Shown in pieces: positions 1,195-13,348 of a stretch of 21,147 nt of DNA (position 1 is its first letter; each line of letters starts with the position of its first letter). A program made the position numbers and the translations under genes. The stretch comes from a virus: the IMG/VR virus record IMGVR_UViG_3300042549_002556, positions 1 through 21,147 of that record. One strand, written 5' to 3'. Under the pieces are notes generated by a model. The model worked only from the letters and a program-made list of their open reading frames with translations. It ran no database searches and had not been told where the DNA came from.

Positions 1195-1399
1195 CTGAAG
1201 TCGTTTAGGACGTTAAAAGGGAAGGATAACAATTGTTAGGCATGATACCCGTCAGTATAAAAAAATTAGTTACTTGATGTCAAATATTACAGTAACAGAC
1301 ATTGGAGAAATTTGGCTTCTCATGAATGTTAAGTCCTATCAGGCAGAATAGGTGATGAGTACTTATGGGAAAATTTTAAAACCTCCAACCTCATCAAAT
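1195..1399 (+). ncRNA. Structured non-coding RNA region upstream of the tRNA-like element
   Basis: No credible gene lies in 1174-1399, but base-paired segments follow in close order. GAGAA (1305-1309) pairs with TTCTC (1317-1321) around a 7-base loop. CCTAT (1335-1339) pairs with ATAGG (1348-1352). Directly abutting it, TGATGAG (1353-1359) pairs with CTCATCA (1390-1396), a 7-bp stem ending three bases before the tRNA-like element. TTAGGAC (1205-1211) is perfectly complementary to GTCCTAA (1466-1472) inside the tRNA-like element, so the two parts may be one RNA of about 340 nt. A perfect 12-base palindrome lies at 1227-1238. I could not match this to RNase P, tmRNA or a group I core. No clear promoter precedes it. 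Confidence 0.5.
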
Positions 1400-1533
1400 A
1401 GTCAGGTGGCGGAAGGTACACGCAAAAAGCCAACTCGTAGATGGAAGCGAGTCTAAATAAGACGGGTCCTAAGTTCGTGGTTTGCGTTAGCAGCTGGCAC
1501 TTGGGCTTACAGGTTCGAATCCTGTCCTGACTA
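1400..1533 (+). tRNA. tRNA-like element, Leu-type D-arm, with oversized middle (intron or atypical)
   Basis: AGTCAGG (1400-1406) is the exact complement of CCTGACT (1526-1532), followed by A1533 as discriminator; CCA is not encoded. Next to the 5' strand is a D-arm, GCG (1409-1411) with CGC (1421-1423), whose loop contains GG, much like tRNA-Leu. Next to the 3' strand is a textbook T-arm, ACAGG/CCTGT around TTCGAAT (1509-1525). A class II tRNA is about 85 nt, but this spans 134 nt. Between the arms lie AAGCCAA (1427-1433) pairing with TTGGGCTT (1501-1508, one bulge), CTCG/CGAG (1434-1437/1448-1451), and a weak stem 1462-1466/1474-1478 with 7-base loop TCCTAAG. No unambiguous anticodon arm is visible, so the identity is open: a tRNA with a small insertion, a degenerate tRNA, or a tRNA-mimic domain of a larger RNA. 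Confidence 0.5.
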
Positions 1534-1993: not shown

Positions 1994-2470
1994 ATGTCAA
2001 ACTTAATAGAAAACACAGAAACATATATTAAAAAACATTTTAAAACATTAAAGCTATCAGATACAGGTAAAGAGGAAGTTTTACAAAAATATCCAAATCC
2101 AAAATCATTTGTAAAAATGTATTTTGATGGATATTGTCCAGCAACAGAATCAGTCAATAAAAATGGAACAAGACCTAAAAACTGTATCGTTACAGAAAAC
2201 AGAAGAAATAGAAGTATTCCTGATGTGTATACATTATTGACTTACTATTATCCTAATATAAAGTTACAAACATTCTTAAAATATTTAGAAGAAGGCGTTA
2301 AAAAAAATAAAATAGGACAGTCCTATTGTCACGATATTAAGAGAATTGTTCTTTATAAAGGACACTATTATCATTCAAAAGTTTTTAGTAATACTTATGA
2401 AAAAGTTTGGAAAAGTAAAAACTCACCCACTTTTGGTAATTTGATTAGCTACTTACATGCTAATGAATAA
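1994..2470 (+). CDS. Hypothetical protein upstream of the SF2 helicase (158 aa)
   Basis: A 158-residue ORF starts at ATG 1994 immediately after the preceding stop and ends at TAA 2468-2470, overlapping the helicase start. The protein is basic. Its middle section has DGYCPATESVNKNGTRPKNCIVTENRRNRSIPDVYTLLTYYYPN and its C-terminal part KIGQSYCHDIKRIVLYKGHYYHSK. Tyrosine, histidine and lysine are frequent, which would suit nucleic-acid contact, but I see no catalytic signature. Its tight linkage to the helicase suggests a role in the same replication or recombination step. Function unknown. Confidence 0.65.
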   Translation: MSNLIENTETYIKKHFKTLKLSDTGKEEVLQKYPNPKSFVKMYFDGYCPATESVNKNGTRPKNCIVTENRRNRSIPDVYTLLTYYYPNIKLQTFLKYLEEGVKKNKIGQSYCHDIKRIVLYKGHYYHSKVFSNTYEKVWKSKNSPTFGNLISYLHANE

Positions 2471-11450: not shown

Positions 11451-13348
11451 ATTGGGATAAAATAGTTACATGGGATATTGAAACCTTATGTAATTGTTTT
11501 ATTGCTTGCTTTAAAGACTATAAGACAGGAAAAAGAAAAGAGTTTATATTTTATGAACATGAGAGTTATGCGAGTCAACCAAAAGAACTATTAAAGTTTT
11601 TAGATACTCTAAAGAAGAATGGCTATACCTTATTAGGATTTAATAGTATAGGATTTGACCATCAGGTTATAGAGTACTATATACAGAATGTTAAATCATT
11701 TGGTGATATGGGTTCTTTAATTGATGGTATTTATAATACAGCCCAAGAGGTTATATCTACACCTGAAGAAGAGAGGTTTAAAGTATTAATACCTGAGCTT
11801 AAACTAAAACATAAGGCTATTGATTTGTTTAAACAAAAACACTATGACGGTAAGGCTAAGAGGGGTTGCTCGCTTAAATGGTTACAATTTGCAATGAGGT
11901 ATCCTAATTTAGAGGATATGCCTTATTCTCATGATGTACCTTTAGAGAAGGAGCAAATAGATGAGGTGTTACGTTATTGTTGGAATGATGTAGATAGTAC
12001 AGAAGAGTTCTTTAATAGAATTAAATTTGAAACAGAGTTAAGAGAATCTTTAAGCATAGAGTTTGATAAGAATCTAATGAATGCCTCTGAACCTAGAATG
12101 GCTAAAGAGATATTCTCAATCTTCTTATGTAAAGAGATGGGTATAGAACCTAAAGAACTTCGTGAAATGAGAACTATAAGAGGAAAGCTTAGGTTTAAAG
12201 ATTTAATACAACCTTATGTTTCATTTTATACGCCTACTTTTAAAAAAGTATTAGAAGATTTTAATAAAGTTGTTATAGATGCTTCTCCTAATAGTTCTGA
12301 TTCTTTTGATTATTCTTTTAATTATAATAATATAAAGATAGATTTAGGATTGGGGGGTATTCATGCTTCAATTAAGTCTGGTATTTATAAAGAAGATGAT
12401 GAGTATATAATAGAAGATTACGATGTTAAATCTATGTATCCTAACTTATCTATTAAAAATGGTATTAAACCAGACCATTTGGGTACATCTTTCCTTAATG
12501 TATATTCAGATTTATATGAACGTAGAAAGACATATGATAAGAAAAACCCTATGAACTATGTAATAAAAATTTGTTTAAATTCTGCGTATGGTTTAGGTAA
12601 AGAGCTTAATAGTTATCTATATGACCCAGCATTTGTTTATGCTATTACATTAACAGGGCAAATGTCTATCTTAATGTTAACAGAGATGTTTGTAGAGTAT
12701 ATAAAAGATTTACAAATACTTCAGCTTAATACAGATGGTGTATTAGTTAGATATAAAAAGAAAGATAAAGAAAGATTAACAAAAATAATAAAGCAGTTTG
12801 AGAAAGTAACACAATTAGAAATGGAGAAAGCTTCTTATAAGAAAGTTATTATAAGAGATTGTAATAACTATATCGCAGTTATAGATGATGATAATGCTAA
12901 ATACAAAGGAGCTTTTGAGTTTGATGTTGATTATCATAAGAATTCTTCTGCTTTAATAATAAGAAAAGCTGTTGCTAATTACTTTTTAAAGGGTGACTCT
13001 TGTGAAAAGTATATAAATGAGAGCAAAGATATATATGATTTCTGCCATTGTTTTAAAACAAGGAAGCCTTTTAGAACTGTATTATATAAAATAAAAGAAG
13101 GCATTCTTGATATAGAAGAACTACAAAAGATAAATAGATTAATTGTATCTAAGAATGGTGACTACATATTTAAAGAAGATGATGATGGTAGAAGAATTGG
13201 TATATTAGCAAAAACAAAAGTTACTATACTAAATAAAATAGAAGATGTAGAAAAAGAATTAGAAAATATAGATAGGAATTGGTACATCTCTCAAGCAAAT
13301 GATTTAATAAATTCAGTAATACAAGATAAAGATTTAACATTATGGTAA
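11432..13348 (+). CDS. Family B DNA polymerase with 3'-5' exonuclease
   Basis: The 638-residue replicative polymerase contains the proofreading domain first: Exo I WDIET (D15, E17), Exo II GFNSIGFD (D76) and Exo III YCWND (Y182, D186). The polymerase motifs follow: A DYDVKSMYP (D331, Y336), B K-ICLNSAYG (K379, N383, Y386) and C LNTDGVL (N433, D435). Motif C is usually DTD; here the first aspartate is asparagine, while D435 is kept. The protein is shorter than T4-type (about 900) polymerases, with reduced thumb and insert regions. It probably works with the encoded SSB, primase and DnaB-like helicase. It overlaps the primase gene at its start and a 57-residue gene at its end. Confidence 0.92.
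   Translation: MAKTLLDWDKIVTWDIETLCNCFIACFKDYKTGKRKEFIFYEHESYASQPKELLKFLDTLKKNGYTLLGFNSIGFDHQVIEYYIQNVKSFGDMGSLIDGIYNTAQEVISTPEEERFKVLIPELKLKHKAIDLFKQKHYDGKAKRGCSLKWLQFAMRYPNLEDMPYSHDVPLEKEQIDEVLRYCWNDVDSTEEFFNRIKFETELRESLSIEFDKNLMNASEPRMAKEIFSIFLCKEMGIEPKELREMRTIRGKLRFKDLIQPYVSFYTPTFKKVLEDFNKVVIDASPNSSDSFDYSFNYNNIKIDLGLGGIHASIKSGIYKEDDEYIIEDYDVKSMYPNLSIKNGIKPDHLGTSFLNVYSDLYERRKTYDKKNPMNYVIKICLNSAYGLGKELNSYLYDPAFVYAITLTGQMSILMLTEMFVEYIKDLQILQLNTDGVLVRYKKKDKERLTKIIKQFEKVTQLEMEKASYKKVIIRDCNNYIAVIDDDNAKYKGAFEFDVDYHKNSSALIIRKAVANYFLKGDSCEKYINESKDIYDFCHCFKTRKPFRTVLYKIKEGILDIEELQKINRLIVSKNGDYIFKEDDDGRRIGILAKTKVTILNKIEDVEKELENIDRNWYISQANDLINSVIQDKDLTLW

Follow-up and report, generated by a model that had tools for sequence, protein, structure and literature searches.

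A widespread family of phage tRNA-like RNAs that lack an anticodon arm and carry an exchangeable core

Introduction

The viral record IMGVR_UViG_3300042549_002556, of which the whole stretch analysed here (hereafter the window; 21,147 nt) forms positions 1 to 21,147, derives from a virus and, within its 21 kb, carries phage replication genes. A preliminary description, made from the letters of the window alone, had pointed out a tRNA-like RNA at positions 1400–1533 with a middle too long for a class II tRNA, and offered three candidates for it, namely, a tRNA gene with an unusually small intron, a tRNA mimic used by the phage and a degenerate tRNA. Which of these, if any, accounts for an RNA that has the ends of a tRNA but not its decoding arm is the question that we address here.

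A tRNA-shaped RNA in a viral record

The element is a tRNA-shaped RNA in which a 7-bp acceptor stem, a Leu-type D-arm with a 3-bp D-stem (GCG/CGC), a T-arm and the discriminator A73 frame a middle of 85 nt. It thus possesses the acceptor, D and T arms and the tertiary core of a tRNA, together with the three traits of the phage family described below, that is, the Leu-type frame, the absence of an anticodon arm and a helix ending 2–4 nt before the T-arm. Acceptor, D-arm, T-arm and discriminator lie exactly where the preliminary description had placed them. CCA is not encoded after A1533, and the folding energy of the RNA is unremarkable (z −1.5 by single-sequence folding). The parts of the element are as follows:

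1400–1406, plus strand: acceptor stem, 5′ strand AGTCAGG; 7/7 pairs with 1526–1532
1409–1423, plus strand: Leu-type D-arm GCG-GAAGGTACA-CGC, with A1424 as nucleotide 26; read from the sequence, frame kept in the family
1424–1508, plus strand: 85-nt middle that stands where the anticodon and variable arms would be; no anticodon arm
1429–1432, plus strand: candidate helix X, 5′ strand GCCA, partner TGGC at 1495–1498; invariant in 5/5 window-type sequences and hence without covariation support
1433–1452, plus strand: hairpin H1, ACTCG (1433–1437) with CGAGT (1448–1452); predicted fold, invariant among relatives
1468–1473, plus strand: helix Y, 5′ strand CCTAAG; third pair varies among relatives
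1482–1493, plus strand: hairpin H2, TTGC-GTTA-GCAG; third pair from the loop varies and stays paired
1500–1505, plus strand: helix Y, 3′ strand CTTGGG, ending 3 nt 5′ of the T-arm; the family-wide helix stops 2–3 nt short of the T-arm
1509–1525, plus strand: T-arm ACAGG-TTCGAAT-CCTGT; read from the sequence and recovered by the Rfam tRNA model at 14 bits
1526–1533, plus strand: acceptor stem, 3′ strand CCTGACT, and discriminator A73 (A1533); read from the sequence, A73 being frequent among AGTCAGG members

ARAGORN with default settings reports no gene in the window, and an Rfam 15 scan at gathering scores gives no match there; when the Rfam scan of the element is made permissive, only the T-arm is recovered. 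At 18 further loci scanned with Rfam, the general tRNA model reaches the element only in L125 and L022, which are short or mid-length members of the family. Run with introns allowed or at low thresholds, ARAGORN gives calls on nearly any middle. For instance, with introns allowed, it calls the window element a tRNA-Thr(cgt) with a 47-nt intron, but an intron-containing tRNA is also called on 292 of 300 dinucleotide-shuffled middles placed in the same frame, so that the call can be ascribed to chance and carries no weight. A tmRNA call obtained at low thresholds, with a start upstream of the element, was discarded, given that a perfect acceptor already begins at 1400.

A family with a constant frame

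A search with the exact D-arm pattern gave no match, and with the neighbouring helicase and polymerase genes as bait, too few relatives spanned the locus. A scan of viral contigs for a Leu-type D-arm, a gap of 73–103 nt and a T-arm core returned at least 119 stretches. Among the matches listed, 94 of 120 carry a perfect 7-bp acceptor, nearly all at exact tRNA offsets, and 96 of 119, likewise among the matches listed, combine at least six acceptor pairs at fixed tRNA offsets with a paired T-stem. Conservation of the D-arm and of much of the T-loop is partly built into these results, given that the search patterns themselves fix both; acceptor pairing at fixed offsets and nucleotide 48 are not imposed by the patterns. 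Since the relatives keep a perfect acceptor at tRNA spacing, the window element is not a chance assembly of stems.

When the 5′ half with the AGTCAGG acceptor was used for searching, the matching 3′ half was found 31–112 nt after the D-arm, with one further case at 229 nt that spans two elements. Overall, the family middles measure about 30–112 nt, with no favoured length. The long members with other acceptors comprise about 48 distinct acceptor sequences in 51 elements, all 51 being paired, as the element caller requires. Nucleotide 48, the base before the T-arm, is T in 91/100 AGTCAGG members and 49/51 of the other long members, as expected from the A15–U48 pair of tRNA-Leu. A73 is present in 90/100 and 37/51, respectively, and absent from the remaining 10/100 and 14/51. 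By contrast, a canonical anticodon arm (5-bp stem, 7-nt loop, U33 and purine 37) occurs in 0/99 AGTCAGG members and 1/47 other long members, compared to 12/13 short non-AGTCAGG controls, which are ordinary tRNA-Leu. The missing anticodon arm of the preliminary description is thus borne out across the family. Furthermore, the acceptor, D-arm, T-arm and 15–48 pair are kept in relatives with compensatory changes. As a case in point, the acceptor of L310 (GATTGAG/CTCAATC) differs from that of the window on both sides in 5/7 pairs. Both the structure and the assignment of the window element to a widespread family of phage tRNA-like RNAs with no apparent anticodon arm thus have good support from sequence comparison.

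These observations bear on two of the three original candidates. A tRNA gene with an unusually small intron, to be spliced into a class II tRNA, would accord with the tRNA-Thr(cgt) call, and some cyanobacterial tRNA arrays indeed contain inserts of 50–60 nt within otherwise normal tRNAs. However, the shuffled middles yield the same kind of call, members with middles of 31–36 nt, which leave no space for an intron, also have no anticodon arm, middle length is continuous, and middles are wholly unlike between close relatives, all of which makes an intron highly improbable. A decaying tRNA pseudogene, or a tRNA copy at an attachment site, might be suspected given that tRNA fragments are common at integration sites (PMC9897764) and that D-arm matches in Synechococcus podoviruses adjoin integrase genes and resemble such sites. 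Yet no integrase was found at the window site, and both acceptor strands, the D-arm and the T-arm, along with the 15–48 pair, are intact and compensated in the window and in many unrelated phages, whereas this frame is what pseudogenes would lose first; we consider such an origin scarcely credible. What survives of the preliminary candidates is the phage tRNA mimic, taken broadly as a tRNA-like RNA that is conserved, and the intron and the degenerate tRNA fail. The family seems to be a common kind of phage RNA that has escaped notice, and not a tRNA that is damaged or interrupted by an intron.

Structure of the variable core

Across 143 non-redundant middles, two helix registers are strongly enriched: one in which exactly 2 nt separate the end of the 3′ strand from the T-arm (z 8.4), and one in which the helix begins 1 nt after the D-arm (z 6.8), with registers further off near zero. 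When thresholds are strict, 48/127 middles contain a helix of 5 bp or more whose end lies 2 nt 5′ of the T-arm, versus 8.4 ± 2.6 in shuffles. The crossing arrangement of the two helices, that is, an H-type pseudoknot, occurs in 14 of the 127 middles versus 1.5 ± 1.0 in shuffles, and the nested arrangement in 5 versus 1.4. Compensatory changes are seen within the core as well. In the L128/L173 pair, which has two crossing helices, four pairs are changed on both sides and every pair is kept; the Listeria phages show double changes in the acceptor, helix X and the inner hairpin, and a one-sided change in helix Y. Taken together, these patterns indicate that the core of many family members is a predicted H-type pseudoknot, with the second helix ending 2 nt before the T-arm.

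For the window element itself, the comparison comprises five sequences (the window, L008, L310, L311 and L312), with pairs read from an alignment and from the sequences, as MAFFT misplaces the L310 core. The third pair of helix Y is U·G, G·U or A–U in these sequences, and the third pair of H2 from the loop is U–A in the window, G–C in L008 and L311 and U–G in L312. The 4-bp helix X (GCCA/TGGC) is kept yet invariant in all five. A pseudoknot in the window element is likely. The preliminary description had instead drawn a central stem against the T-arm: this pairing, AAGCC 1427–1431/GGCTT 1504–1508, is lost in L310, and the overlapping helix Y (1468–1473/1500–1505) is the better supported. This loss also weakens the comparison with the P2/T-arm arrangement of tmRNA that was based on it, and an enclosing P2-like stem gives no signal across the family (z −0.4).

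Core exchange and mobility of the elements

Comparison of closely related phages reveals a recurrent pattern of constant frame and unlike middle. Between the phages Grass and SBSphiJ1, identity amounts to 95% in the 150 nt upstream, 92% in the 5′ frame, 18% in the middle, 100% in the 3′ frame and 83% downstream. The corresponding values for L142 and L188 are 95, 100, 9, 100 and 59%; for L015 and L148, they are 93% upstream, 100% in both parts of the frame and 99% downstream, with middles that are unlike, their gapped score of 55 overstating the similarity. PSA and LP-101 follow the same pattern. Judged from these alignments, middles are apparently replaced wholesale inside the constant frame. 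Entire elements also recur in otherwise dissimilar surroundings. The window and L008 share 1398–1536 alone (89%) and nothing else at E below 0.001, and what is common to L311 and L312 is essentially just the element, which indicates that whole elements evidently move between unrelated phages. That the tRNA frame stays constant while the core is replaced wholesale among close relatives points to a role in specificity that is subject to strong change.

Distribution and genomic neighbourhood

The family is widespread: members occur in viral contigs from a wide range of environments, in phages of Bacillus, Listeria, Enterococcus, Brochothrix and Paenibacillus, and in a number of contigs from bacterial chromosomes. 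Among cultured phages, the element is present and unannotated in SPP1, where it lies between genes 9 and 11, among head genes; in Grass, BSP10 and SBSphiJ1; in the Listeria phages B054, PSA, LP-101, vB_LmoS_188, LP-114 and LP-LmcIH1-8; in the Brochothrix phage BtpYZU01; and in the Enterococcus phages 21C1 and EH-TP1. It has thus gone unannotated even in phages as well known as SPP1 and PSA, and the window member escapes both ARAGORN and Rfam at default settings. Genome contigs hold members in Paenibacillus and several Bacteroidota. Some chromosome matches of the long pattern (e.g., L258, L276 and L285) were set aside as duplicated pieces of ordinary tRNAs. Most cultured-phage members have the T-arm GCNAGG-TGCAAAT-CCTNGC, with TTCGATT in the EH-TP1 member; most Bacilli-phage members combine the T-loop TGCAAAT, in which U55 is replaced by G, with a 6-bp T-stem.

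We found no neighbour gene that is conserved family-wide; genes for terminase, homing endonucleases and others recur, none of them generally. Many elements sit in tRNA arrays or among phage tRNA genes. In several Listeria and Brochothrix phages, the element comes just after a late regulator, upstream of HNH or terminase genes. In at least 8 of 111 viral loci, the first gene downstream of the element encodes the terminase large subunit, at a distance of about 35 nt in one cluster. In the window, a NUMOD4/HNH homing endonuclease gene (262–786) lies upstream of the tRNA-like RNA. On the contigs of L312 (about 820–920) and L310 (about 1655–1780), a further, different tRNA-like element is found just upstream of the window-type one, and one of these has an odd D-arm containing GGTTCGATTCC. 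Partial tRNA-Leu-like sequences by integrase genes in the Synechococcus phages S-TIP37 and S-TIP28 (L202:1502–1560 and L203:1502–1560) are probably attachment sites. In the cyanobacterial tRNA arrays of L260 (2502–5694; Prochloron), L226 and L272, several tRNAs that are normal in other respects each bear a similar insert of 50–60 nt, placed in the anticodon loop or in the variable region.

Adjacent structured RNAs

Several elements are accompanied by other structured RNAs. Directly upstream of the window element is a stretch of about 132 nt, denoted RNA ‘R’, which is 82% identical to stretches adjoining the tRNA-like elements in L115 and L310; the relationship is one of association only:

1268–1399, plus strand (window): RNA ‘R’, directly upstream of the tRNA-like element
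11753–11881, minus strand (L115): RNA ‘R’, downstream of the tRNA-like element
1997–2124, plus strand (L310): RNA ‘R’, downstream of the tRNA-like element

RNA ‘R’ has at least four hairpins, with seven doubly compensated pairs in the three sequences, and no match in Rfam. Phage tmRNA genes adjoin elements or lie within a few hundred nucleotides of them in L304 (849–1196), L128 (5468–5866, minus strand) and L155 (553–939, minus strand). Rfam matches to the Listeria sRNA rliG (L302:1042–1240 and L299:1050–1197) overlap the 5′ end of the element, as in L302, or stop just before it, and rliG may be the upstream part of the same transcript as the phage tRNA-like element. Downstream of the element, Listeria phages also contain matches to the Rfam ‘mcrA RNA’ (RF03010; L307:1321–1371 and L302:1479–1528).

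Possible functions

On balance, we favour an explanation in which a complete tRNA core carries an exchangeable hypervariable domain, so that the element would be a stable, possibly leucylated, non-decoding RNA with an effector core. RNase P and the host enzymes that mature tRNA 3′ ends would trim the transcript, CCA would be added, and the tRNA ends would keep the RNA stable. Charging of E. coli tRNA-Leu survives removal of the anticodon and variable arms, the anticodon arm being dispensable for LeuRS, and depends on A73 and the D-loop/T-loop contacts (PMC9976931). These determinants are found in the sequence of the family frame, and because the conserved frame matches this minimal chargeable tRNA-Leu, the RNA might be leucylated by LeuRS while being unable to decode. 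The T-loop and T-stem of the Bacilli-phage members may impair G18:U55 contacts or recognition by LeuRS or EF-Tu, and the U55-to-G change warns against taking charging for granted in all members. The frame would then act as a stabilizing chassis that binds the tRNA machinery, and the variable core as an effector that might engage a changing target. Fast core replacement argues for a changing partner, which makes phage–host or phage–phage conflict the leading idea and the most likely arena, with the RNA possibly acting as a decoy for, or an inhibitor of, a factor directed at tRNAs or the ribosome. No excess of antisense matches to the phage's own DNA was found. Only tentatively do we go further and suggest a categorically new class of phage RNA, in which a leucine-chargeable, anticodon-less chassis carries an exchangeable, hypervariable pseudoknot module that passes between phages by recombination within the constant frame and acts as a specificity element in conflict with hosts or other phages.

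Within the setting of conflict, the element could be a decoy or antitoxin-like RNA against host defences that cut or sense tRNAs, its core changing to escape or match host factors. Replacement of the core within a constant frame, the lack of an anticodon loop available for cutting, movement between unrelated phages and the frequent location among phage tRNA genes all fit; however, the same pattern fits other fast-evolving targets, and this candidate reading is possible but rather unlikely. The main alternative to a conflict role is a ribosome-directed, tmRNA-like one, in which the charged body would enter stalled or empty A sites and the pseudoknotted core would replace the SmpB/anticodon region. 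Although the tRNA body joined to a pseudoknot, the retention of A73 and the tRNA elbow, and the phage tmRNA genes next to the elements in L304, L155 and L128 speak for it, no tag reading frame is evident, a D-stem is present, ARAGORN makes tmRNA calls in only 5/215 loci, and a factor facing the conserved ribosome would hardly be expected to be hypervariable, so that we judge this role improbable. The proximity of terminase genes, including those shortly downstream of the Brochothrix phage element, and the position among the head genes of SPP1 bring to mind a packaging or virion RNA like that of phi29, but most loci have other neighbours, many elements reside in tRNA arrays, and the members share no domain suited to contact with a portal or motor, leaving very little room for such a function. 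Regardless of which reading proves correct, SPP1 and B. subtilis are tractable, and the function of the element favoured here, an effector core on a tRNA chassis, is accordingly open to direct testing.

Comparison with known systems

No description of the family was found in the open-access literature searched, and the element is not annotated in the public phage records checked. Among the nearest known systems, the bacterial class II tRNA-Leu shares the 7-bp acceptor, the D-arm GGCGGAA..GGTAGACGC, the A15–U48 pair, the T-arm and mostly A73, whereas the family is without an anticodon arm (99/99 AGTCAGG members) and its middle of about 30–112 nt contrasts with roughly 30–36 nt in tRNA-Leu. The tmRNA (SsrA, RF00023) similarly joins tRNA-like ends to a pseudoknotted structure that replaces the anticodon arm, but the phage element has a D-stem, is much shorter, shows no tag frame and has no Rfam tmRNA match at the element. 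Bacterial Y RNA (YrlA), found in phages too, is a non-coding RNA that mimics tRNA; its tRNA-like portion sits inside the molecule as a module that binds Ro60, whereas in the phage family the acceptor would make up the two ends of the RNA.

Allo-tRNAs and irregular tRNA polycistrons resemble the family in that they, too, are non-canonical genes of tRNA-like type which lie in arrays and have an unusual acceptor/T-arm geometry, and a link to mobile elements or toxin–antitoxin systems has been suggested for them (Mukai et al., 2017, as reviewed in PMC7609411). Allo-tRNAs differ in having 8/4 or 9/3 geometry, Ser-type identity and retained anticodons, as opposed to the 7/5 geometry (7/6 in most Bacilli-phage members), Leu-type frame and lack of an anticodon of the phage family; identity with allo-tRNAs was accordingly rejected, given the 7/5 geometry of the window element and the mostly A73 discriminators of the family. 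The pseudo-tRNA tRNA-Other of B. cereus is likewise tRNA-like, resides on mobile DNA and serves a purpose other than translation (PMC3399842), but it has an anticodon and sits inside a larger regulatory RNA. Plant-virus 3′ tRNA-like structures are chargeable viral tRNA mimics that also use pseudoknots (PMC9976931); their pseudoknot, however, is in the acceptor, whereas the phage family combines a normal acceptor with a pseudoknotted core. Overall, the family is relevant to the question of which features allow a tRNA-like RNA to be charged and to remain stable when the anticodon is missing; we file it under tRNA-like RNA, and there is a substantial chance that, set beside these systems, it deserves a class of its own.
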